64,000 nucleotides of DNA from Salipiger pentaromativorans (GTDB lineage: Bacteria > Pseudomonadota > Alphaproteobacteria > Rhodobacterales > Rhodobacteraceae). The DNA lies in the NCBI RefSeq assembly GCF_024721115.1, contig NZ_JAMDHK010000020.1, forward strand, positions 1 through 64,000, read 5' to 3'. Below, one piece after another: positions 51,381-63,120 of this stretch. The notes below the pieces were generated by a model, which saw only the letters and a list, made by a program, of their open reading frames with translations, did not search any database and was not told the origin of the DNA. The stretch's first letter is position 1; the number at the start of each line of letters is the position of its first letter. The translations under genes and the position numbers were made by a program.

Positions 51381-52718
51381 CTAGCGCAGCGCCGCGGGCA
51401 GATGCAGCACGATCTGCGGCAGCGCGACCACCAGGATCAGCGCGATCACCTGGATCGCCACGAAGGGCAGGATGCCCCGGTAAATCGTGCCGATGGGAAT
51501 GCTCGTATCCACCCCGCGCAGGTAGAACAGCGCGTAGCCGAAGGGCGGGGTCAGGAACGAGGTTTGCAGGTTCACCGCAAGCGCGATGGCGAACCACAGC
51601 GTGACATCGCTGGCCGGCAGGCCGAAATCGAGCCGCGCGACAATGGGCATCACGATGGGGATGACCACCAGCGTGATCTCGATCCAGTCGAGGAAGAACC
51701 CCAGCACAAAGATCAGCGCCATCACCACCGCCAGCGTCACATAGGGGCTGACATCGCCGAAATGGAACAGATCGGCGATCATCGCATCGCCGCCCAGCTT
51801 GCGGAACACCAGGCTGAACACCGTGGCGCCGATCATCACGAAGGACACCATGCCGGTGGTCTTGGTGGTCTCGAACACCGCCCGGCGCAGCGTCGCAAAG
51901 GACAGCTTGCCCGAGACGAAAGCCAGCAGCGTCGCGCCAAAGGCCCCGATGGCGGCGGATTCGGTCGGTGTCGCGACCCCGGCGATGATGGTGCCCAGCA
52001 CCGACAGGATCAGCAGCATCGGCGCCACCAGATCCAGCAGCAGCGACAGCACCGCTTTCCACGCCGGCACCGGATCGGCCTGCGGCGGCGGCGGCATCCG
52101 CTTGGGCGAGAAGATCGCCACCAGGATGATATAGAGGAAATACATCCCCGCCAGCAGCAGCCCGGGATAGACCGCGCCCATGAACAGATCACCGATCGGC
52201 ACCCGAAGCTGGTCGCCCAGGATGATCAGCATGATCGAGGGCGGGATGAGAATGCCCAGCGTGCCCGAGGCCGCCACGATGCCGGTGGCCATGCGCATGT
52301 CGTAGCCGGCCTTTTTCATCGCCGGCAGCGACATCATCCCCATCAGCACCACCGAGGCGCCGATGATCCCGGTTGAGGCGGCCATCACCACGCCGATCAC
52401 CGCAACCGCAAAGGCATAGCCTCCGGGCAGCCGCCCCGCCAGCGCCGCCAGTGACCGCATCAGCCGCTCGGCGATGCCCGAGCTTTCCAGCATCAGCCCC
52501 ATGTAGATGAACAGCGGGATCGCGGCGAGCAGCCAGTTGGTCAGCGTCCCCGAATAGATCCGCTGCACCCCCATGGAGAGGAACACCATGGGCACGTCGG
52601 CGAAGACCGCGAAAAGGATGCCGACCCCCGCAAGCGAGAACCCGACGGGGTAGCCGCTGAACAGCAGCAGGATCAGCGCGACGAGCATCCCGCCGGGCCA
52701 GAGAAAATCAGCTATCAT
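51381..52718 (-). CDS. TRAP transporter large permease (DctM-like)
   Basis: A 445-residue transport subunit with about 12 hydrophobic segments. Signatures IPLFIYMGLMLESSG, ASGTLGILIPPSIMLIILGD and FLTPPFGYALFYLRG are all present. It overlaps the small subunit gene by 11 bases. With 52708-53304 and 53377-54411 it forms the third TRAP importer (order P-Q-M on the minus strand), resembling the set at 35.6-38.8 kb. Confidence 0.93.
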   Translation of the reverse strand: MIADFLWPGGMLVALILLLFSGYPVGFSLAGVGILFAVFADVPMVFLSMGVQRIYSGTLTNWLLAAIPLFIYMGLMLESSGIAERLMRSLAALAGRLPGGYAFAVAVIGVVMAASTGIIGASVVLMGMMSLPAMKKAGYDMRMATGIVAASGTLGILIPPSIMLIILGDQLRVPIGDLFMGAVYPGLLLAGMYFLYIILVAIFSPKRMPPPPQADPVPAWKAVLSLLLDLVAPMLLILSVLGTIIAGVATPTESAAIGAFGATLLAFVSGKLSFATLRRAVFETTKTTGMVSFVMIGATVFSLVFRKLGGDAMIADLFHFGDVSPYVTLAVVMALIFVLGFFLDWIEITLVVIPIVMPIVARLDFGLPASDVTLWFAIALAVNLQTSFLTPPFGYALFYLRGVDTSIPIGTIYRGILPFVAIQVIALILVVALPQIVLHLPAALR

Positions 52719-53304
52719 GATGTGTTTCGATCTCGTGGAACGTGTTTTGGCGCAGTTCGCGCAGCGTGGTGATCATGCGGACGATGCCGGCGAGGCCCAG
52801 CAGTGCGAAAGACACCGGCACTGCCCCCTTGATCAGCCAATGCGCCTCGAGCCCGCCCTGGGTCGATCCCTCGCCCGTGCGCCAGGCGATCCCGGCAAAG
52901 CGGCTGCCGTACCAGATGCAGAGCGCGCAGAGCGGCAGCAGCAGGAACAGGTCTCCGAACAGCGAGATCAGCGCCCGCGCCCGCGGCGAGAAATGCAGCG
53001 CAAGGAAATCGACGGTGACGTGGCGGTCTTCGAAAAACGCCCAGACGCCGCCGAACAGCACGATCAGCGCAAAGGAATACCATTGCAGGTCGAGCAGGCT
53101 GTTGACCGTGAGTGCCGAGCCGAGGATCGGCAGCTCGCCCTCCCAGTCGATGAGGGTCGACCAGCCCATGATTGCGGCGATCACCGACAGAAGGATGGTC
53201 AGCACAAGCGGCAGGATCAGCCAGGATGCGATCTTGCCGGGCAGGCACAGCAGGCTGCGGGCAAGCGCGAGGATACGAAGTGTCATGGAGTCAGATGGCG
53301 CCAT
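52708..53304 (-). CDS. TRAP transporter small permease (DctQ-like)
   Basis: A 198-residue membrane protein with four hydrophobic segments; LLDLQWYSFALIVLFGGVWAFFEDRHVTVDFLA is the typical central block of the Q subunit. GGGAGGGGCCGGA precedes the ATG at 53304. Long N-terminal part for the family. Overlaps the large subunit gene. Confidence 0.9.
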   Translation of the reverse strand: MAPSDSMTLRILALARSLLCLPGKIASWLILPLVLTILLSVIAAIMGWSTLIDWEGELPILGSALTVNSLLDLQWYSFALIVLFGGVWAFFEDRHVTVDFLALHFSPRARALISLFGDLFLLLPLCALCIWYGSRFAGIAWRTGEGSTQGGLEAHWLIKGAVPVSFALLGLAGIVRMITTLRELRQNTFHEIETHHDS

Positions 53305-53376
53305 TCCGGCCCCTCCCTGATGGATGGTGCAGAGACGTGTGGGCGGGCGCCGTCTCGGGCGCCCGCCGGCGCGGCG

Positions 53377-54411
53377 TCAGTCCTTGCGCGGCGGGATCGC
53401 CTGCAACTCGGCCCATTCGCCGACCGTATCGACATAATTGCGGATCGACGCCAGCGCCTCGGCGAAAAGCGGGTCCTTGGCGGCCTCCTCCTCGAGCACC
53501 TCGTCCGAGGCCACGCGCAGATCCTGCAACACCTCGTCGGGGAACCGGCGAATCTCCACCCCGGCCTCGCGAATCTGGGCGATGGCCCCGGCCTGCGCAT
53601 TCACCATATCCGCCAGATTGAACGCGATATTCGCCAGGCAGGCTTCTTCCAGGATCGTCTGGTTCTTCTCGCCCATGCGGTTCCAGACATCGCCGTTCAC
53701 GATGATGGAATTCCAGGTCGCGACCTGATGCCAGCCGGGGAAGTAGTAATATTTGGCCACATCCTGGAACCCCATCCCGACATCGAGCTGCGGCGTGCCG
53801 AACTCGGTGGCATCCAGCCGCCCGGTTTCAAGCCCGAGATAGATCTCGCCCGGCGGAATCGCCTGGGTGTTGGCGCCGAGCTTGGCCAGAACCTTGCCGC
53901 CCAGCCCGGCAAAGCGGATGTTCATCCCCCTGAAGTCTTCGACCGTGTTGATTTCCTTGTTGAACCAGCCCCCGGCCTCCGAAATCGGCACATGGCAGGG
54001 CAGGTAATGCACATTGAACGGGTCATAGGCTTTCTGGATGATCTCCTTGCCGCCGCCGTAGAACATCCAGGCCAGCGTCACATCCGGCGACGGGCCGAAG
54101 GGCATCGCCGCGATGATCGAGGCGACGGGGATCTGCGAGGCCCAGTAACCGGCCCAGTCATAGCCCATGTCGAGCGCGCCGGAGCTGACCGCGCCGAACA
54201 GCTCGTAGGGCGGCACGAAGGCGCCCGGCTCATGCACCTCGACCCGGATGTCGCCGCCCGACATCAGCGACACGCGCTCGGCCCAATGCACCGGGCTCGG
54301 CCCGATGGAGGGCGCCTGAAGGTTGACGAATGTCTGTAGCGTGTAAGTCTCGGCATGCGCGGCGGCGGCCGACAATACGGCTGCGGCCGCGAAAGCGGCA
54401 AAATGGTTCAT
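53377..54411 (-). CDS. TRAP transporter substrate-binding protein (DctP-like)
   Basis: A 344-residue receptor with an alanine-rich signal peptide (cleavage near AAAHAET). YTLQTFVNLQAPSIGPSPVHW, HEPGAFVPPYELFGAVSSGALDMGYD and MNIRFAGLGGKVLAKLGA (with the ligand Arg) match the receptor at 35573 in plan. GGGAGGACATCAGG precedes the ATG. First gene of the third TRAP operon; a TGATAGC repeat lies in its promoter region. Confidence 0.92.
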   Translation of the reverse strand: MNHFAAFAAAAVLSAAAAHAETYTLQTFVNLQAPSIGPSPVHWAERVSLMSGGDIRVEVHEPGAFVPPYELFGAVSSGALDMGYDWAGYWASQIPVASIIAAMPFGPSPDVTLAWMFYGGGKEIIQKAYDPFNVHYLPCHVPISEAGGWFNKEINTVEDFRGMNIRFAGLGGKVLAKLGANTQAIPPGEIYLGLETGRLDATEFGTPQLDVGMGFQDVAKYYYFPGWHQVATWNSIIVNGDVWNRMGEKNQTILEEACLANIAFNLADMVNAQAGAIAQIREAGVEIRRFPDEVLQDLRVASDEVLEEEAAKDPLFAEALASIRNYVDTVGEWAELQAIPPRKD

Positions 54412-54760: not shown

Positions 54761-56941
54761 TCAGGCGAAGGTCACGCCGTTCTCCGCCATCGGCAGCACC
54801 GTCACCAGCCTGCCCCCCGGCAGCGCCGCGATGGCATTGGCCAACGCCGGGCCCGCGGGCGGAACCGCCGGTTCGCCCACCCCGGTGGGCGCCGCCGCCG
54901 AAGGCACGATGACCACCTCGATGGCCTTGATGTCGGAGATGCGCAGCGGCTCGTAATCGGGGAAGTTCACCTGCTGCACCTCCCCGCCCTCGAAGGTCAC
55001 CGCATTGCGCATCACCGCGCCAAGCCCGTAGCCGATGCCGCTTTCCATCTGCGCCTTCACCACATCCGGGTTGACCGCCAGGCCGCAATCCACGGCACAG
55101 ACCACCCGCTCGATCTGGATCCGCCCGTCGCTCTGCGAGATCTCGACCACCTCGGCGACATAGGTCTCGAAGGACTTGTGCGCCGCGATCCCGCGCGCGC
55201 GCCCCTCGGGCAACGGGTCGTCCCAGCCGGCGGCCTCGGCCGCCGCCCGCAACACCCCGGCCATGCGCCTCTGATCCGGGGCGTCGCCGGTCAGATGCTT
55301 CAGCCGGAACGCCAGCGGATCCTCTCCGGCGGCGCGCGCCGCCTGATCCATCATCGTCTCCATCACATAGCCGGTGTGGTTATGCCCGACCGAACGCCAC
55401 CACAGCACCGTGCTGAGCGGCGCGCTGTCGGTGAGCCCGACAAACATCCCGCCGATGCGATACGGCGTGTCCCGCGTGCCCTCGACCGAGGTCGGATCGA
55501 CCCCGCCTTCCTGCACCATGCCGCCTTCAAAGGGCGTGCCCTTGATGATCGACTCGCCCGCGACGCGGTGATCCCAGCCGGCAATGGCCCCGCTCTCGTC
55601 GAGACCGATACGCACCTTATGCGCCACCGCCGGGCGATAATAACCGCCGCGCACATCGTCCTCGCGCGAGAACACCAGCTTTACCGGGCGGGACCGGTCG
55701 GTCAGCGCAAAGGCTTGCGCCGCCTCCACGGGATAATCCGCATCGGTGTTCGACCGGCGCCCAAAGGAGCCGCCGGCGAACATCGTGTTGATGCGCACCT
55801 TGCCCGGCTCGAGCCCCAGCGCCCCCGCCACCATCGCCTGCACCAGCGTCTGGAACTGGCAGCCATCGTGCAGGATCACCCCGCCATCCGCCGTCGGTTC
55901 GATGGTGCAGTTGACCGGCTCCATGGGCGCATGGGCAAGGTTCGGAAAGAAGAACTCCGCCTCCACCTGCCTCGGCGCGCCCGCCACCGCAGCGGCGATC
56001 TCGGTCATGGGCCGGTCGGCCCGCGCCTCATAGGCGGGTGCCGCGCTCACCATCGCCGACAGCTCGGCGCGCAGATCGGCCTGACTGCGCGCCTCGGCGC
56101 CGGACAGGTCCCACTCGGCGGCGATCGCTTCGCGCGCCTGGAACGCCGCCCAGGTATGCTCGGCAAAGACGACAACCCCGCCGACGCCCTCTTTCGCCTC
56201 GATGAAGCCCGGCACGGCAGCGGCCGCCGCCGCATCGAACCCGGTCAGCACCGCGCCCTTGCGCGGCGGGCGCAGGATCACCGCCACCATCTGGTTCGGC
56301 AGGTGAACGTCCATGCCATATTGCGCGCTGCCGTCGATCTTGGCGGGCGTGTCGGTCCGGCGCAGGTCCGGGTTGCCGATCAGCCGGAACTGCGCCGGAT
56401 CCTTCAGCGGCGGATCCTCCGGCAGCACCATCGCGCTGGCGGTCTCGACAAACGCGCCCATGCCCTCCGACCGGCCATGCCCGGAAATCGTGCCGTTCTC
56501 GAGCGTCAGCTCCGCCACCGGCACCGCCCAGTCCTGCGCGGCCGCCTGCAACAGAACCGCGCGCGCAGCGGCCCCCGCCTTGCGGTATTGCAGGAAGGAA
56601 TTGGACAGCGCGGTCGACCCGCCGGTAAGCTGCACGCCAAAGAGCGTATTGGCGTAATGTTCATTGTCCGCCGGCGCGAACTCCACCCGGATGCCCGACA
56701 GATCGCTGCCCAGCTCCTCGGCCACCAGCGTCGGCAGCCCGGTCGCGGGCCCCTGCCCCATCTCCAGATGTTTGACGAGCACCGTCACGCGGCCCGTCGT
56801 GTCGATGCGCACGAAAGGCGTGAAATCGCGCGTCTTGGCCTGCACCCCGAACGCCAGCGCGCCTCGAGCATCGACCCCGATCACCAGCCCCGACGCGGCG
56901 GCGCCGGCAAGAAACCCTCTGCGGGAGGTTTTGACACTCAT
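54761..56941 (-). CDS. Molybdopterin subunit of a periplasmic aldehyde/heterocycle dehydrogenase (IorB-like)
   Basis: A 726-residue IorB-type large subunit. The N-terminus carries a Tat signal (SRRGFLAGAAASGL, about 6-19), so the folded enzyme is exported with its cofactor. Landmarks: LEMGQGPATGLPTLVAEELG, GGSFGRRSNTDADYP for the cofactor, and GVGEPAVPP with catalytic Glu690. Unlike the CoxL-type enzyme at 40986, this group has no FAD subunit and gives electrons to c-type cytochromes. Starts one base after the iron-sulfur subunit stop. With the upstream alcohol dehydrogenase and cytochrome, an aldehyde dehydrogenase role is the best inference (compare AldFGH of acetic acid bacteria). Confidence 0.92.
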   Translation of the reverse strand: MSVKTSRRGFLAGAAASGLVIGVDARGALAFGVQAKTRDFTPFVRIDTTGRVTVLVKHLEMGQGPATGLPTLVAEELGSDLSGIRVEFAPADNEHYANTLFGVQLTGGSTALSNSFLQYRKAGAAARAVLLQAAAQDWAVPVAELTLENGTISGHGRSEGMGAFVETASAMVLPEDPPLKDPAQFRLIGNPDLRRTDTPAKIDGSAQYGMDVHLPNQMVAVILRPPRKGAVLTGFDAAAAAAVPGFIEAKEGVGGVVVFAEHTWAAFQAREAIAAEWDLSGAEARSQADLRAELSAMVSAAPAYEARADRPMTEIAAAVAGAPRQVEAEFFFPNLAHAPMEPVNCTIEPTADGGVILHDGCQFQTLVQAMVAGALGLEPGKVRINTMFAGGSFGRRSNTDADYPVEAAQAFALTDRSRPVKLVFSREDDVRGGYYRPAVAHKVRIGLDESGAIAGWDHRVAGESIIKGTPFEGGMVQEGGVDPTSVEGTRDTPYRIGGMFVGLTDSAPLSTVLWWRSVGHNHTGYVMETMMDQAARAAGEDPLAFRLKHLTGDAPDQRRMAGVLRAAAEAAGWDDPLPEGRARGIAAHKSFETYVAEVVEISQSDGRIQIERVVCAVDCGLAVNPDVVKAQMESGIGYGLGAVMRNAVTFEGGEVQQVNFPDYEPLRISDIKAIEVVIVPSAAAPTGVGEPAVPPAGPALANAIAALPGGRLVTVLPMAENGVTFA

Positions 56942-56942
56942 C

Positions 56943-57404
56943 TCACGCCTCCAGAATTTCGGCGGCGCGCAGGATGGCGCCGCGTATACGCTGATAGGTC
57001 GCGCAGCGGCAGGCATTGCCCCACATCTGCGCGTCGATCTCTTCCACCGAGGGCGACCGGGTTTCGGTCAGCAGCCCCACGGCCTGCATGATCTGGCCGG
57101 ACTGGCAATAGCCGCATTGCACGACATCCAGCTCGCGCCAGGCCTGCCGCACGGCTTCGGCCACCTCGCCGCCGACCTGCTCGATGGTGGTCACCTCGCT
57201 GTCGCCGACATCCTCGATCATGGTCTGGCACGACCGCACCGGCATGCCGTCCAGATGCACGGTGCAGGCACCGCAGGCGGCAACGCCGCAGCCGAATTTC
57301 GTGCCCGTCAGCCGAAGCGTGTCGCGCAGCACCCACAGCAGCGGGGTGCCGGGCGCGGCCTCGACCTCCGACATGGTTCCATTGATCTTGAGCTTGATAG
57401 ACAT
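56943..57404 (-). CDS. [2Fe-2S] subunit (IorA-like)
   Basis: A 153-residue two-cluster subunit: Cys39, Cys44, Cys47, Cys59 in GCGVAACGACTVHLDG..RSC, then CGYCQSGQIM and NACRCATY for the second cluster. No signal peptide, consistent with export together with the Tat-signal-bearing partner. GGAGGAGCCCTGAAC precedes the ATG. It shuttles electrons from molybdenum to cytochrome c. Confidence 0.95.
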   Translation of the reverse strand: MSIKLKINGTMSEVEAAPGTPLLWVLRDTLRLTGTKFGCGVAACGACTVHLDGMPVRSCQTMIEDVGDSEVTTIEQVGGEVAEAVRQAWRELDVVQCGYCQSGQIMQAVGLLTETRSPSVEEIDAQMWGNACRCATYQRIRGAILRAAEILEA

Positions 57405-57479: not shown

Positions 57480-58745
57480 TCAGTTGAGCCGTGCGATTGC
57501 GGCCATGGTCAGGGTCGCGGGGCCCAGCGGCGGCCGCGGCGGCACATGGTGAACGCCGCTTTGCGCCGCGAAGGCCGCCACCTGTCCGCTCTCGAGCAGC
57601 CCGGTCAGCGCGGCATCGGCCGCCTGACGCAGCGCATCCTGGCGCGCCAGCACCGCAAAGCCGAGATTGATGCCCAGCGGATGCCGCCAGCTTCCCAGCC
57701 GCAGCCCCGTCACCGAGTTCTGCCGCCGATGGAAATCATAGGCCCCGACCTCGATCAGCGCGGCATCGGCAAGCCCGGTCTCCATCCGCCACAGAAAGCC
57801 GGCGCCCGGCGGCTCGGCCTGGGCATCGGCGCGAAGGTCCGGCGGCGCGCTCATCCGCACCACGAGCTGCGCGAGCGTGTTGCCCTGATACGCGAGCCGC
57901 AGCCCGCCGAGATCGCCCAGCCCGGCCGGATCCCGCTCGCCCGCCGAGGGCGCCAGAACCAGCCCCATCTCGGCCCGCCGGTAAGGCGCGGTCACCGCGA
58001 TGGGCTCAAGCGCGATCCGGTTGCGCCGATACCACTGATCCGGCTGGCCGAGCCATTCCGGCATCTGCCCGAAAGGCACAGACGGTGCGCCGACCGCGCT
58101 TTCCAGCAGCGGATGCGCCGGCACCAGATCGCACAGGCCGTAGCTCATCAGCGCCGCGGCCTCGGCGCGCGGATCGGTGCCGCCTTCCGCCTCGTACCAT
58201 GCGGCGGCAAACCGCAGGTTCAGCGCCTCCGCCAGCGCCCGCGACACCAGATAGTCGAGCCCGACACCGCCATCGTGCCGCCAGCCCGACATCGCTCCGC
58301 CATTGCGCGCCAGACAGACCGTCAGCACCCCCGGCGCCACCGTCTCCAGCGCTGCGGCGCCCTCCTCTTCCGGCACCGCCTCGTCTCCGGCCAGCGCCGC
58401 GCGCGCCGCCTCCGGCATGTCGCGGCTGCCGGCCTGGGTGGTGACATAGGCCCAGAGCGCCTCGATGTCGCCGGGCCGCAGCACATCGCCCCAGCTCGGC
58501 ATCCGCCCCTTGCCATCGGTGACCGACGACCGGAACCGCCCGAACTCCTCGGCCGGGAACTTGCGCAGATCGAACGAGGAATTGCCCGAATTCCGCATCT
58601 GCGCCCCGTGGCAGCGCGAACACATCCGCGAATAGCGCGACTTGCCCTTCGCAACCAGCTCATCGACGGACAGATCCTGCGCCATGGCCGGCGCTCCGAA
58701 AAGCGCCAGCAGGGCGGCCAGCCCAAGCAGAAGACCCCGGACCAT
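57480..58745 (-). CDS. Cytochrome c fused to XoxJ/MxaJ-like periplasmic binding domain
   Basis: A 421-residue exported fusion. After a signal peptide (cleavage near APAMAQ) comes a small class I cytochrome c: Cys42-x2-Cys45-His46 (CSRCH), a haem Met82 in GRMPSWG and LWAYV at the end (about 24-125). A linker (about 126-137) leads to a substrate-binding-protein-like domain (about 138-410) starting VLTVCLARNGGAMSGW, the pattern of quinoprotein-dehydrogenase-associated (XoxJ/MxaJ) proteins. The haem half should accept electrons from the adjacent PQQ enzyme and the J half is thought to bind or mature it. The ATG overlaps the dehydrogenase stop (TGATG). XoxG and XoxJ are usually separate genes. Confidence 0.88.
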   Translation of the reverse strand: MVRGLLLGLAALLALFGAPAMAQDLSVDELVAKGKSRYSRMCSRCHGAQMRNSGNSSFDLRKFPAEEFGRFRSSVTDGKGRMPSWGDVLRPGDIEALWAYVTTQAGSRDMPEAARAALAGDEAVPEEEGAAALETVAPGVLTVCLARNGGAMSGWRHDGGVGLDYLVSRALAEALNLRFAAAWYEAEGGTDPRAEAAALMSYGLCDLVPAHPLLESAVGAPSVPFGQMPEWLGQPDQWYRRNRIALEPIAVTAPYRRAEMGLVLAPSAGERDPAGLGDLGGLRLAYQGNTLAQLVVRMSAPPDLRADAQAEPPGAGFLWRMETGLADAALIEVGAYDFHRRQNSVTGLRLGSWRHPLGINLGFAVLARQDALRQAADAALTGLLESGQVAAFAAQSGVHHVPPRPPLGPATLTMAAIARLN

Positions 58746-60424
58746 CAGCGCGCCTCGGGCAGGGCAAAGGTCCAGATATTCGCGCCCGCGGGCACGTTCG
58801 ACAGCCGCTCGTCGCCGGAATAGAGCTCATAGGCCGCACCGCCGCCATTGCCGACGGTCACATATTGCCGCCCGTCCTTCTCCCAGGTGATCGGCTGACC
58901 GTTCACCGCCGAGCCGGTCTGATAGGACCACAGGGTTTCCCCCGTCGCGGCATCCAGCGCGGCAAACTCCCCGGTGGTCTCGCCGGTAAAGACCAGCCCT
59001 CCGGCGGTGCTCAGCAGACCGCTCCAACGCGGCGTTTCGGCGGGCTTGATCCAGGCCACTTCGCCCGTCATCGGGTCGATCGCGACGGTATCGCCGTTAT
59101 GGCCGTCCTCGGGCAGATGAAAGGCCATCTCCACCCCGAGATACATGGTGCCCGCGATATATTCGGGCTCCACCGGCTTGGAGGTCATCGGAAAGATCAG
59201 CGTGTTGATATAGACCAGATTGTCCTGCGGGTTGTAGGACATCGGCGCATAGTTCTTGCCGCCAAGGCTGCCCGGCGCGTAATCGGCCTCTTCACCGGCG
59301 ACCACCTTGTCATAGACATCCGTCACGATGGGCCGCCCGGTCTCCAGGTCGATGCCGGTGGCCCAGGTCACCTGCCCGTCCCCGGTCTGGAACGGGTTCG
59401 CCGCCAGCAGCGTCCCGTCGGTGCGGTCGAGCACATAGAGAAAGCCGTTCTTGTTGGCGTGCATCAGCACCTTCTGCCCGTCGATGTCGGCCAGAACCAT
59501 CTCGTTCATCGCGTCGTAATCGAACGGATCGTGCGGCGAGAACTGGTAATGCCACTTGATCGCCCCGGTCTTGGGATCGAGCGCCAGAACCGAGGAGGTA
59601 TAGAGGTTGTCGCCCGGACGCACCGAGGCGTTATAGGGCGTCGCGTTGCCCGTCCCGATATACAGCGTGTGCAGCTCCGGGTCGAAGGATCCGGTGATCC
59701 AGCCGCCGCCGCCGCCGTGTTTCCAGGCGTCGCCGCCGCCCTCCCAGGTTTCGTGGCCCGGCTCGCCCGGCCCCGGAATCGTGTAGGTGCGCCACAGCCG
59801 CTCACCGGTCTTGGCATCATAGCCGTCGATATAGCCGCGAATGCCGTAATCGCCCCCCGCCACCGGCAGGATCACCACGCCATCGGCAATCTGGGGCGCC
59901 GCAGTGAAGTTGTAACCGAGCTTGTAATCCTCGGATTTCGCTCGCCAAATCTCGTCTCCGGTGGCCAGATCCAGCGCCACCACATGGGCGTCGGGCGTGC
60001 CCCGGAACAGCATGCCCTCATAGATCGCCGCCCCCCGGTTATGCACACCGCAGCACAGAACCCGCGTCGCCTCGGTCGGATAATAGGTGAAGCTCTTCCA
60101 GAGCTGCCGCCCGGTGACCGCGTCGATGGCCACCGTCGCATCATGGGTCGTCACATAGAGGATGCCGTCATGCAGCAGCGGAAAGGTCTCGTTCGAGAAC
60201 TCGTTGGCCAGGCTCAGGGTCCAGGCCGGCGCCAGCGCCGCGACCGTCTCGGTATTGATCTGGTCGAGCGTGCTGTAACGCTGCTGCCCATAGCCCATGC
60301 CATAGGTCAGGATCTGGTCCGTGGTCGCCGCATCCCGCGCGAGATCGTCGGCGCTCTGGGCGCAGACCGGCCCCGCGAGGGCCGCCAGCGTCACGGCAAC
60401 GGCCAGTCGCTTGAATGGTTGCAT
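58745..60424 (-). CDS. PQQ-dependent alcohol dehydrogenase, lanthanide-type signature
   Basis: A 559-residue eight-bladed propeller quinoprotein of the methanol/ethanol family with a signal peptide (cleavage near PVCAQS). The vicinal disulfide next to PQQ is Cys124-Cys125 (VLCCGV). The catalytic Asp302 lies in SPHDPFDYD, and the residue two further is Asp304, the extra Asp that coordinates lanthanide in XoxF/ExaF/PedH enzymes and is Ala or Ser in calcium forms. No fused haem domain (length fits type I). GGGAGGAATTC precedes the ATG. Followed by the cytochrome-J fusion, its likely acceptor. The alcohol substrate is not evident; XoxF size is close to 600, so this is a shorter relative. Confidence 0.93.
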   Translation of the reverse strand: MQPFKRLAVAVTLAALAGPVCAQSADDLARDAATTDQILTYGMGYGQQRYSTLDQINTETVAALAPAWTLSLANEFSNETFPLLHDGILYVTTHDATVAIDAVTGRQLWKSFTYYPTEATRVLCCGVHNRGAAIYEGMLFRGTPDAHVVALDLATGDEIWRAKSEDYKLGYNFTAAPQIADGVVILPVAGGDYGIRGYIDGYDAKTGERLWRTYTIPGPGEPGHETWEGGGDAWKHGGGGGWITGSFDPELHTLYIGTGNATPYNASVRPGDNLYTSSVLALDPKTGAIKWHYQFSPHDPFDYDAMNEMVLADIDGQKVLMHANKNGFLYVLDRTDGTLLAANPFQTGDGQVTWATGIDLETGRPIVTDVYDKVVAGEEADYAPGSLGGKNYAPMSYNPQDNLVYINTLIFPMTSKPVEPEYIAGTMYLGVEMAFHLPEDGHNGDTVAIDPMTGEVAWIKPAETPRWSGLLSTAGGLVFTGETTGEFAALDAATGETLWSYQTGSAVNGQPITWEKDGRQYVTVGNGGGAAYELYSGDERLSNVPAGANIWTFALPEAR

Positions 60425-60970: not shown

Positions 60971-62155
60971 ATGATTCCAGTGACACCCATCGCGGCAGAG
61001 CGCCCCTCGGCGCTGGCGACCGACATTTCCGAGCGGCTGAACACCGCGATCCGCGAACATCTCCTTTCGGCCTTCGCCCCCGACAACACCAAGACGCTGC
61101 GCCGCTTCTCCGCCCCCGAAGCGGCCGAGCTGCTGGGCGTCTCCGGCCAGTTCATGCGCAAGATGCACGCCGAAGGCACCCTCCCCGAACCCGGCGAAAG
61201 CCGTGGCGGGCGGCGCTATTACACCGCGCAGGAACTCTGGGATGCGCGCGGCATCCTCGAACAATCCTCCCGCAAGAAGGGCCGCTACGTCCCCCGCCGC
61301 AGCGACGGCGAAAAGCTCCAGGTCTGGCAGCTCATGAACTTCAAGGGCGGCTCCAGCAAAAGCACCACCTGCGTTCACCTCGCCCATTTCTTCGCGCTCC
61401 GGGGCTATCGCGTGCTGGTCGTCGATCTCGACCCGCAGGGCTCGCTGACCTCGATGTGCGGCATCAGCCCCGAAATTGAATTCGACGGGCTCACCGTCTA
61501 TGACGCCATCCGCTACGACAATCCCGTCGCCATGTCCGAGGTCGTCGTCCCCACCTATTTCCCCGGCCTCTCCATCGCGCCCTCCCGGCTCATGCTGTCC
61601 GAGTTCGAGACGGAATCCGCCGTGCATTCCAACCCCGACCAGCCGTTCTTCCTGCGCATCCGCAACGCGCTGTCGCAGGTCGCCGACTCCTTCGATCTCG
61701 TCCTGATGGACAGCCCGCCGCAGCTTGGCTTCCTGACGATCTCCGGCATGGCGGCGGCAAGCTCGCTGATCGTTCCGCTCACCCCCTCCATGCTCGACGT
61801 CTCCTCGACCGCGCAGTTCCTCGAACTCGCCGGCGCCTATATGGGGGTGATCGAAGACGCGGGCGCGACGCTGCAATACGATCACTTCAAGTTCCTCATC
61901 ACCCGCGACGAGCCCACCGACGTGCCGTCGCAGCAGCTCACCTCCTTCATGCGCGCGCTGTTCCAGGACCGGGTGATGTCGGCTACCGCGCTCAAAAGCA
62001 CCGCCGTCAGCGACGCCACGATGCTCAAACAATCCATCTACGAGGTCATCCGCTCCGAGATGACCCGCGCGACCTACGATCGCGCCAAAAGCTCCATGGA
62101 CGCGGTCGGCAGCGAGGTCGAGCGCATGATTCACCAATCTTGGGGACGTTCATAA
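60971..62155 (+). CDS. parA: Plasmid partitioning ATPase ParA/RepA
   Basis: A 394-residue type Ia ParA. The N-terminal region (about 45-92: RRFSAPEAAELLGVSGQFMRKMHAEGTLP, then GRRYYTAQELWDAR) is a MerR-like DNA-binding domain, followed by the deviant Walker A KGGSSKST (125-132), VVDLDPQGSLTSM (Walker A') and LMDSPPQLGFL (Walker B). It positions plasmid copies by ATP-driven gradients on the nucleoid and represses its own operon. It matches RepA of repABC plasmids and the ParA of related alphaproteobacterial replicons. Stop overlaps the parB start (TAATG). Confidence 0.95.
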   Translation: MIPVTPIAAERPSALATDISERLNTAIREHLLSAFAPDNTKTLRRFSAPEAAELLGVSGQFMRKMHAEGTLPEPGESRGGRRYYTAQELWDARGILEQSSRKKGRYVPRRSDGEKLQVWQLMNFKGGSSKSTTCVHLAHFFALRGYRVLVVDLDPQGSLTSMCGISPEIEFDGLTVYDAIRYDNPVAMSEVVVPTYFPGLSIAPSRLMLSEFETESAVHSNPDQPFFLRIRNALSQVADSFDLVLMDSPPQLGFLTISGMAAASSLIVPLTPSMLDVSSTAQFLELAGAYMGVIEDAGATLQYDHFKFLITRDEPTDVPSQQLTSFMRALFQDRVMSATALKSTAVSDATMLKQSIYEVIRSEMTRATYDRAKSSMDAVGSEVERMIHQSWGRS

Positions 62156-63120
62156 TGGCCAGGAAATCGCTCCGGGATATGTCCGGCATCGCCAGCACCA
62201 TCGCCCGCTCCGGCGCCTCCGCCGCCGAGAAACCGCCCCGCCCCAACGCCCCTGCCCTGGGTGCGCTGCAAGGCTCGCTTGCCGCGATCCGCGAAATCGA
62301 CCCCGCGCTGATCGACGATTGGGGGCCCGCCGACCGGCTCGACGAGTTTACAACTGTAAACCCCGAGGACGAGGGCGAGAGCTTCGACGCGCTGCGCAAC
62401 AGCATCCGCGACGGCGGCCAGCAGGTGCCCATCCTGGTCCGGAAATCCGCGACCGAAGGGCGCTACGAGGCGATCTACGGGCGCCGCCGGCTCCGCGCCT
62501 GCCGCGAGCTGGGCGTCAAGGTGCGCGCCAATGTGCAAGACATCGACGACGCCACCGCGCTGCTGGCCAAGGGGCTCGAAAACGCCGCCCGGCGCAATCT
62601 GTCCTTCTACGAAAAGGCCCGCTTTGCCCAGGCCATCCAGGCCGCCGGCCATGACAGCGCCACCGCGCGGCAGGCGCTCAGCCTCTCTGCCCCCGGCCTT
62701 TCGCATCTGACCAAGGTCACCCAGAACGTCCCGCGCGCGGTGGGCGATGCCATCGGCGCCGCGCCGAAATCCGGGCGGCCGAAATGGACCGCGCTGGCCG
62801 AGCTCTTCATCGCGCGGAAACTCACCGAGCAAGCCGCGCTCGACATCCTCGCATCCGCGCCGGCCACAGGCTCCGACCAGCGCCTCGACGCGCTCTTGCG
62901 CGCAGCCGCAACCCGCGACAGCGCAGCCGAGAGCGACGCCACAGAAACCATCCTGCTCGACGGGATCACGCTCAAATCGAGCCGCGGCGCGCTGGCGCTA
63001 TCGGTCCGCAAAAGCGGCGCAAACGCGGATTTCGCCGCCTGGCTCGACGCCAATCTCGCCGAGCTCATCCGGAACGCCCATGCCAGCTTTACGGCGGACA
63101 AGACCCCGGAAGACCGCTGA
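62155..63120 (+). CDS. parB: Plasmid partitioning protein ParB/RepB
   Basis: A 321-residue centromere-binding protein. N-terminal MARKSLRDMSGIAS is the ParA-stimulating tail; the ParB/Srx nuclease-like (CTP-binding) domain lies about 65-140 with GQQVPILVRKS and GRRRLRACRELG (box II); the HTH that reads parS follows (about 160-215, FAQAIQAAGHDSATARQALSLS). It loads at parS and spreads or slides along DNA. A parS-like palindrome lies inside its own coding sequence. repC is not downstream. Confidence 0.93.
   Translation: MARKSLRDMSGIASTIARSGASAAEKPPRPNAPALGALQGSLAAIREIDPALIDDWGPADRLDEFTTVNPEDEGESFDALRNSIRDGGQQVPILVRKSATEGRYEAIYGRRRLRACRELGVKVRANVQDIDDATALLAKGLENAARRNLSFYEKARFAQAIQAAGHDSATARQALSLSAPGLSHLTKVTQNVPRAVGDAIGAAPKSGRPKWTALAELFIARKLTEQAALDILASAPATGSDQRLDALLRAAATRDSAAESDATETILLDGITLKSSRGALALSVRKSGANADFAAWLDANLAELIRNAHASFTADKTPEDR
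62346..62361. repeat. parS-like palindrome, copy 2 (inside parB)
   Basis: GTTTACA-AC-TGTAAAC, 7-base perfect arms, fits the GTT-N10-AAC frame of repABC-type parS exactly and repeats the core of copy 1 at 60807. It occurs within the parB coding sequence without disturbing the frame. Confidence 0.6.

Follow-up and report, generated by a model that had tools for sequence, protein, structure and literature searches.

The window, a 64,000 nt stretch of a contig from Salipiger pentaromativorans, carries on its minus strand a gene of 421 codons whose product combines a class-I cytochrome c with a domain of the periplasmic binding protein (PBP) fold (Table 1). This fusion gene follows a gene for a PQQ alcohol dehydrogenase so closely that the TGA of the dehydrogenase and the ATG of the fusion have one base in common (TGATG). 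On the same strand, 75 bases past the end of the fusion gene, lies the ATG for the 2Fe-2S subunit of a xanthine-dehydrogenase-family oxidoreductase, and genes for a molybdopterin subunit and a TRAP transporter come next. Genes for ParA and a RepB-type ParB are located beside the operon (positions 60971-63120, plus strand), and the same 76 kb contig holds a Rep3 initiator gene and a second ParA-like gene (L093:10338-13485). As the contig looks like a plasmid on account of these replication and partition genes, the operon is probably plasmid-borne. The genome has one copy of the fusion, and its xox cluster encodes XoxG and XoxJ as separate genes. Two more PQQ alcohol dehydrogenases are encoded in this genome, on contig C35 within the xox cluster and on contig C33 (L091, G000:C33:198000-217000).

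Table 1. The fusion gene, its parts and its neighbours in the window.
Feature	Position	Strand	Basis or remark
Fusion gene, cytochrome c and J-like PBP domain, 421 aa	57480..58745	minus	no internal stop
Signal peptide, residues 1-22, MVRGLLLGLAALLALFGAPAMA	58680..58745	minus	read from sequence
Class-I cytochrome c domain, residues 29-106	58428..58661	minus	Pfam PF13442; matches to c6 and PedF below cut-off
Haem attachment CSRCH, residues 42-46	58608..58622	minus	Cys, Cys, His invariant in 11/11 domains
Met82, probable axial haem ligand	58500..58502	minus	invariant in 11/11 domains, then invariant Pro
Linker, about residues 107-137	58335..58427	minus	pLDDT <50 at 121-134
J-like PBP domain, about residues 138-421	57483..58334	minus	profile matches and structure model
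Cys144, first of cysteine pair shared with XoxJ	58314..58316	minus	alignment of family, XoxJ and other PBPs
Cys205, second of cysteine pair shared with XoxJ	58131..58133	minus	alignment of family, XoxJ and other PBPs
PQQ alcohol dehydrogenase, PedH-like, 559 aa	58745..60424	minus	TIGR03075 and 6zcv
D302-Y-D304, lanthanide-type D-x-D motif	59513..59521	minus	aligned with D-F-D (6zcv) and D-F-S (1flg)
Asp192 in place of relatives' Glu	59849..59851	minus	dehydrogenase alignment
2Fe-2S subunit, xanthine-dehydrogenase-family oxidoreductase	56943..57404	minus	Pfam Fer2, Fer2_2
Molybdopterin subunit	54761..56941	minus	Pfam MoCoBD_1, MoCoBD_2; start codon chosen by us
TRAP transporter DctM, DctQ, DctP	51381..54411	minus	Pfam

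The fusion is real, and a single polypeptide carries both domains. Several features read from the DNA at the outset were confirmed, namely one signal peptide (no further strongly hydrophobic segment precedes the PBP domain), a haem site formed by Cys42, Cys45 and His46 with Met82 as its probable axial ligand, and both domains in one uninterrupted frame. The binding-protein domain, put at about 270 residues, is present as claimed but is slightly longer than that. An AlphaFold2 model built on an alignment of 22 rows has a mean pLDDT of 83.8 and a pTM of 0.69, with a helix at residues 2-15 and low confidence at 17-21 in the signal peptide region. In blocks of 10 residues from position 141, pLDDT in the PBP half is mostly 82-97, with one block at 77 and the last two at 74 and 56. 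The gap between the two domain matches is 13-56 aa in six other single-haem fusions.

Relatives of this protein exist in which the two parts are separate, often overlapping genes, and two neighbouring genes could have been joined here by a sequencing or assembly error such as an indel at the junction. We find this explanation hardly credible. The same fusion is present in 7 of the 21 loci found by a profile scan (see below), and the linkers in these seven other records differ, which argues against a frameshift artefact. GC content at codon position 3 also stays at 0.78-0.90 in one frame along the whole open reading frame, junction included. Finally, a signal-like hydrophobic stretch distinguishes separate from fused PBPs, as the best 15-residue hydropathy reaches 1.65-2.64 in 15 of 16 separate PBP genes (the exception, L067, has -0.46), whereas none of the eight fused proteins attains that range ahead of the PBP (1.34 in the window, 0.23-0.97 in the seven others).

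Pfam Cytochrome_CBB3 (PF13442) matches residues 31-101 of the window protein (E 1.5e-12), and the CxxCH and distal Met are those of a class-I cytochrome c. The best NCBIfam matches of this half are cytochrome c6 and then PedF, both far below cut-off; for the PedF cytochrome c550 model (TIGR04494) the window reaches 26.4 and 30.1 of 122 bits. The cytochrome cL model (TIGR03872) yields 13.2 of 147.8 bits (E 0.073) and covers residues 27-50 only. When scored with one cytochrome profile of the fusion family, 10 XoxG proteins of related genomes have 11.1-22.6 bits and 26 other cytochromes of such genomes have 26.7-52.5 bits, a comparison biased in favour of the latter, since they had been collected by a search with the window protein. 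A PedF-like N-terminal motif is carried by 21 of these 26, which score 35.1-47.9 bits, and one of the 26 that was checked, L012, is PedF at 192.8 bits. By sequence comparison, the cytochrome half is a small c6/PedF-like cytochrome and not XoxG or cytochrome cL, contrary to the XoxG identity first suggested for it. A plain XoxG-XoxJ fusion is rejected by these family-profile scores and by the failure of the cL, XoxJ and MxaJ models to recognize the protein.

Taken alone, the PBP half hits nothing in Pfam or NCBIfam at limits up to E 10, and three of the four members of our first PBP family alignment match SBP_bac_3 at E <=10 (best E 2.6e-5). The curated XoxJ and MxaJ models (TIGR03871 and TIGR03870) find neither the whole window protein up to E 1 nor its PBP half up to E 10, and their best values among three other members scanned are E 0.018 and 0.011 respectively. 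On these grounds the PBP half is from a subfamily outside the XoxJ/MxaJ models. The fold is nevertheless that of XoxJ and MxaJ, as judged by the structure model, the fold search and profile matches. The AlphaFold2 model of this half matches solved PBPs (best E 2.8e-12, with high rmsd), and the 50 Foldseek matches listed, among which XoxJ and MxaJ are absent, are mostly amino-acid-binding PBPs or MltF.

Two characteristics are shared with XoxJ. A cysteine pair in the first lobe (Cys144 and Cys205) is present in all 24 family rows and all 11 XoxJ sequences but in none of the nine other PBPs of the genome, three of which have a Cys one residue before the Cys144 position. The PBP is encoded in the position of XoxJ and MxaJ, behind the genes for a PQQ dehydrogenase and its cytochrome, in 22 of 24 places. 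The PBP family profile also reaches XoxJ 6onp (E 3.2e-5) and 5sv6, presumably MxaJ (E 4.7e-6), both in the first lobe, and amino-acid-binding PBPs give the best matches in the fold search and, for the second lobe, in the profile search. In a comparison that drew its amino-acid PBPs from the nine PBPs of the window's own genome (five in the profile, all nine singly), profiles place the family equally near amino-acid PBPs (hhalign 98.5, E 2.7e-15) and XoxJ (98.2, E 4.3e-14). Scored as a single sequence, the window domain gives E 0.043 for amino-acid PBPs and 0.2 for XoxJ, neither of them significant, while 20 and 21 of the 24 family rows, respectively, are significant.

In trees, the PBP family and XoxJ are two separate groups. 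In an unrooted tree with five amino-acid PBPs, a branch with 98/86 support has both on the same side. When the genome's full set of nine PBPs is used, L086 falls between the family and XoxJ (97/88), and the test does not reject a topology that keeps the two on the same side (p-AU 0.32). L086 is a family-3 PBP encoded about 5.6 kb from the C33 dehydrogenase, and it ranks first among the nine against the new PBP profile. The trees are no proof that the family is the sister of XoxJ, as the supporting tree is unrooted and L086 intervenes when all nine are present. Because the two form separate groups and the trees give no decision on nearest kin, we use the name J-like rather than XoxJ. The fold, the cysteine pair and the gene position speak for the original assignment to the XoxJ/MxaJ kind, whereas membership in the curated families does not hold. 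A further PBP type was observed in three genomes of the family (L042, L043 and L046), with a conserved N-terminal EPEFxDxPYxxxQWxYGRRxDESQLRxCVD and a weak match to the XoxJ model.

As had been proposed, the dehydrogenase upstream is not of the methanol type. It passes TIGR03075 with 601.9 bits (cut-off 480.05), and its best solved relative is 6zcv, a quinoprotein ethanol dehydrogenase (E 1.1e-119). At the Asp192 site, which we take to hold a metal ligand, 6zcv and 19 of the 20 rows that cover the site have Glu, and the window alone has Asp. Of the 20 rows that have residues at the vicinal cysteine pair, 19 show the pair; the remaining one, L075, is a partial sequence. All 22 dehydrogenase rows carry the D-x-D motif, which an ocean survey treats as a mark of lanthanide binding; the same source gives the name PedH to 6ZCW, the sister entry of 6zcv (PMC11996626). 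By its motifs and nearest relatives, the enzyme is PedH-like and probably lanthanide-dependent. The dehydrogenase and PBP of the window were flagged for their long branches, and its cytochrome branch is fairly long (0.79, median 0.26). Given these branches and the Asp in place of a metal-ligand Glu, the window copy may have drifted and may not be typical of its family.

Scanning genome contigs with a profile recovered 21 loci from 136 pattern stretches, which together with the window and two further loci (L003 and L056) make up the 24 places considered here. Cytochrome and PBP are in one frame in eight places, the window included, and apart in 16, a ratio that is no frequency because the scan used two patterns. 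Among the 21 loci, 14 have the two genes side by side and seven have them fused, six of these alphaproteobacterial and one from a Granulosicoccus metagenome-assembled genome (MAG, L062). The six are from an uncultured Roseobacter (L060), a Rhizobiaceae MAG (L061), a strain of Zhengella mangrovi (L063), two Rhodobacteraceae MAGs (L064 and L066) and a Phyllobacteriaceae MAG (L065). Thus, the fusion is no unique case, although it had seemed unusual when first noticed. The order dehydrogenase, cytochrome, PBP on one strand holds in 22 of the 24 places; the dehydrogenase is missing from the stretches of L068 and L071, the latter on a contig that begins at the cytochrome. Adjacent genes of the window, and of many loci with separate parts, have overlapping or directly abutting start and stop codons. 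One fusion (L066:5317-6864) has two tandem haem domains ahead of the PBP, and the cytochrome tree joins the two as sisters (99/98). In L067 the cytochrome and PBP lie in different frames (L067:2353-2425), and this locus may be a frame-changed fusion, by a real change or an assembly error, because its PBP is without a start codon and a signal-like stretch.

Neighbouring genes tell more about this family. Scans with one member per group found relatives of PqqB, PqqC, PqqD and PqqE in L064, L066, L067 and L068, relatives of TIGR03863 and TIGR03866 in L058, L059, L064 and L066, and relatives of TIGR03861 in L058, L059 and L064. As genes for PQQ synthesis and ped-type genes are thus neighbours of several loci, the family is tied to PQQ-dependent alcohol oxidation. 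In five loci of the Minwuia/Kordiimonadales type (L069 to L073; e.g. L073:6118-7362) a further protein is encoded after the PBP gene. It has two CxxCH motifs in the copies read, and the one scanned weakly resembles di-haem enzymes of the MbnH/MauG type.

Relatives that include the PBP occur in at least 4 of 196, 7 of 385 and 8 of 398 genomes in samples drawn at the level of order, class and phylum, all lower bounds with at most 9, 6 and 4 candidates, respectively, scored per genome. In the order sample at least 34 genomes have some match, which in 30 of them is to the cytochrome part. The family was found in none of 83 stretches from a single-protein scan of genome contigs and in none of 127 stretches of viral contigs. 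A plasmid search by protein returned no match. The same search by DNA returned 118 records of 60-80% identity, all of which cover less than 80% of the query; of the 20 listed, 15 have a PQQ dehydrogenase or PQQ-binding protein as the matching feature.

To trace the history of the fusion, we used a tree of dehydrogenase, cytochrome and PBP together (24 rows, 955 columns), in which eight fused and four separate forms group at 100/100. The separate forms L003, L057, L058 and L059 are nested beside the fused L060 (99/98). Holding the fused forms as one clade is rejected by this tree (p-AU 1.95e-5, or 6.3e-50 if L067 is counted as fused) and by the single-gene trees of the PBP (0.011) and the cytochrome (0.038); the tree of the dehydrogenase by itself is compatible with one clade (0.09). 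The window is a long branch in these trees. A single origin of the fusion without reversal was therefore discarded on the evidence of the three-gene, PBP and cytochrome trees. As read from the trees, the fusion either was reversed once or arose repeatedly, and two changes, one fusion and one split, would suffice. Repeated fusion may be mechanically easier, since the separate genes often abut or overlap and a split PBP must gain a signal peptide.

Our search of the open-access literature found only one printed precedent for such a fusion, cytochrome cGJ (XoxG:J) of Methylacidiphilum, which is described as a cytochrome c and a J-type PBP in one polypeptide with a lanthanide PQQ dehydrogenase as partner (PMC8498564; PMC6688271). 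The window protein resembles it in uniting these two parts in one chain. By the published description, the Methylacidiphilum operon is xoxF-J-G:J, with a truncated J in the fusion and a full-length xoxJ retained besides (PMC6688271). In contrast, the J-like half is full length in the window, no second J gene was found beside the fusion, and the stretches of the seven other fusions hold no second PBP matching the family profile. The cytochrome here is c6/PedF-like and the dehydrogenase PedH-like, which are further differences from cGJ. The initial annotation had considered either an independent or a transferred fusion. We regard independent fusion as likely because the full-length J-like part and the lack of a second J gene beside it depart from the Methylacidiphilum description. 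Transfer from Verrucomicrobia is unlikely, to judge from the relatives found, which are alphaproteobacterial with three exceptions: the fused form of the Granulosicoccus MAG and separate forms in a Comamonadaceae MAG and in one genome of another class. The fusion is common to a family, and its origin is probably independent.

The ped cluster of Pseudomonas is similar in placing a small c550-type cytochrome (PedF) and a PBP (PedG) beside PQQ alcohol dehydrogenases, as described (PMC12997753), and relatives of other ped genes occur in some loci of the fusion family. In that cluster the two are separate genes; the window protein also misses the PedF cut-off, and the likeness to PedG is one of description. 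XoxJ and MxaJ are matched in fold, cysteine pair and place after dehydrogenase and cytochrome, but the window lies outside TIGR03871 and TIGR03870 and the family forms its own group in trees.

On balance, we favour the view that the protein is a secreted electron-transfer partner of the upstream dehydrogenase and that its J-like half binds that enzyme. The fusion would be exported and would then receive its haem. Its cytochrome half would accept electrons from the reduced PQQ of the PedH-like, probably lanthanide-dependent dehydrogenase and pass them to the respiratory chain. The J-like half would not feed an ABC importer but would bind the dehydrogenase, as XoxJ and MxaJ may do, either holding the apo-enzyme during loading of metal and PQQ or docking the finished enzyme, and the covalent link would keep the electron acceptor at the docking site. 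We infer the electron flow, the contact between PBP and dehydrogenase and the choice of metal; the roles of the two halves are carried over from XoxG and XoxJ. In Methylorubrum grown with lanthanum, loss of xoxG or xoxJ is reported to equal loss of XoxF (PMC7391723). The role of XoxJ-type proteins is debated in one account, with regulation, maturation and docking all proposed and binding of a partly folded apo-enzyme suggested for XoxJ and MxaJ (PMC12997753).

The PBP half might instead be a ligand sensor or solute-binding domain, in which a small molecule such as an amino-acid-like compound or a metal chelate gates docking of the cytochrome. We judge this distinctly unlikely. It would fit the amino-acid-binding PBPs that head the fold search and the second-lobe profile matches, but no ABC importer component is among the eight neighbouring proteins scanned, and an Arg of all five amino-acid PBPs from the genome is a Tyr in the window and absent from all 11 XoxJ sequences, at a site where the alignment is uncertain and 10 of 24 family rows have Arg.

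The proximity and shared strand of the downstream molybdenum oxidoreductase raise another alternative, that the fusion is chiefly the acceptor for this enzyme in periplasmic aldehyde oxidation, or is shared between it and the alcohol dehydrogenase. The large subunit bears what we read by eye as a twin-arginine-like export signal (SRRGFL). Distant relatives of it (47.6 and 46.8 bits) also occur near the PBP gene in 2 of the 21 profile-scan loci, L073 (L073:8814-11129) and L071 (L071:3187-5565), where cytochrome and PBP are a separate pair. The stretches of the other 19 loci contain no relative of either subunit, however, the small subunit has none in any of the 21, and the constant partner of the family is the alcohol dehydrogenase. 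We therefore think this alternative improbable. That alcohol and aldehyde oxidation are both periplasmic in the window, with the molybdenum enzyme catalysing the aldehyde step, is speculative, because only distant large-subunit relatives are found near 2 of the 21 loci.

Returning to the dehydrogenase as the partner, we also entertain, with considerable doubt, a bolder picture of a tethered module. Here a chaperone domain for lanthanide and PQQ loading, belonging to PBPs that the XoxJ/MxaJ models do not cover, would be permanently joined to the electron acceptor of the same enzyme. It would have been fused and split repeatedly, with the haem domain once doubled, and in the window might serve the periplasmic molybdenum aldehyde oxidoreductase as well as the lanthanide alcohol dehydrogenase.

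The fusion to a cytochrome suggests that the target of the J-like part is likewise the dehydrogenase and not an importer. As the parts are joined in some relatives and apart in others, the role of this helper is open to test, and the same pair in separate, one-haem fused and two-haem fused forms provides a natural series for asking how tethering affects electron transfer and metal loading. The fusion family adds a partner type to the set of probable lanthanide enzymes.
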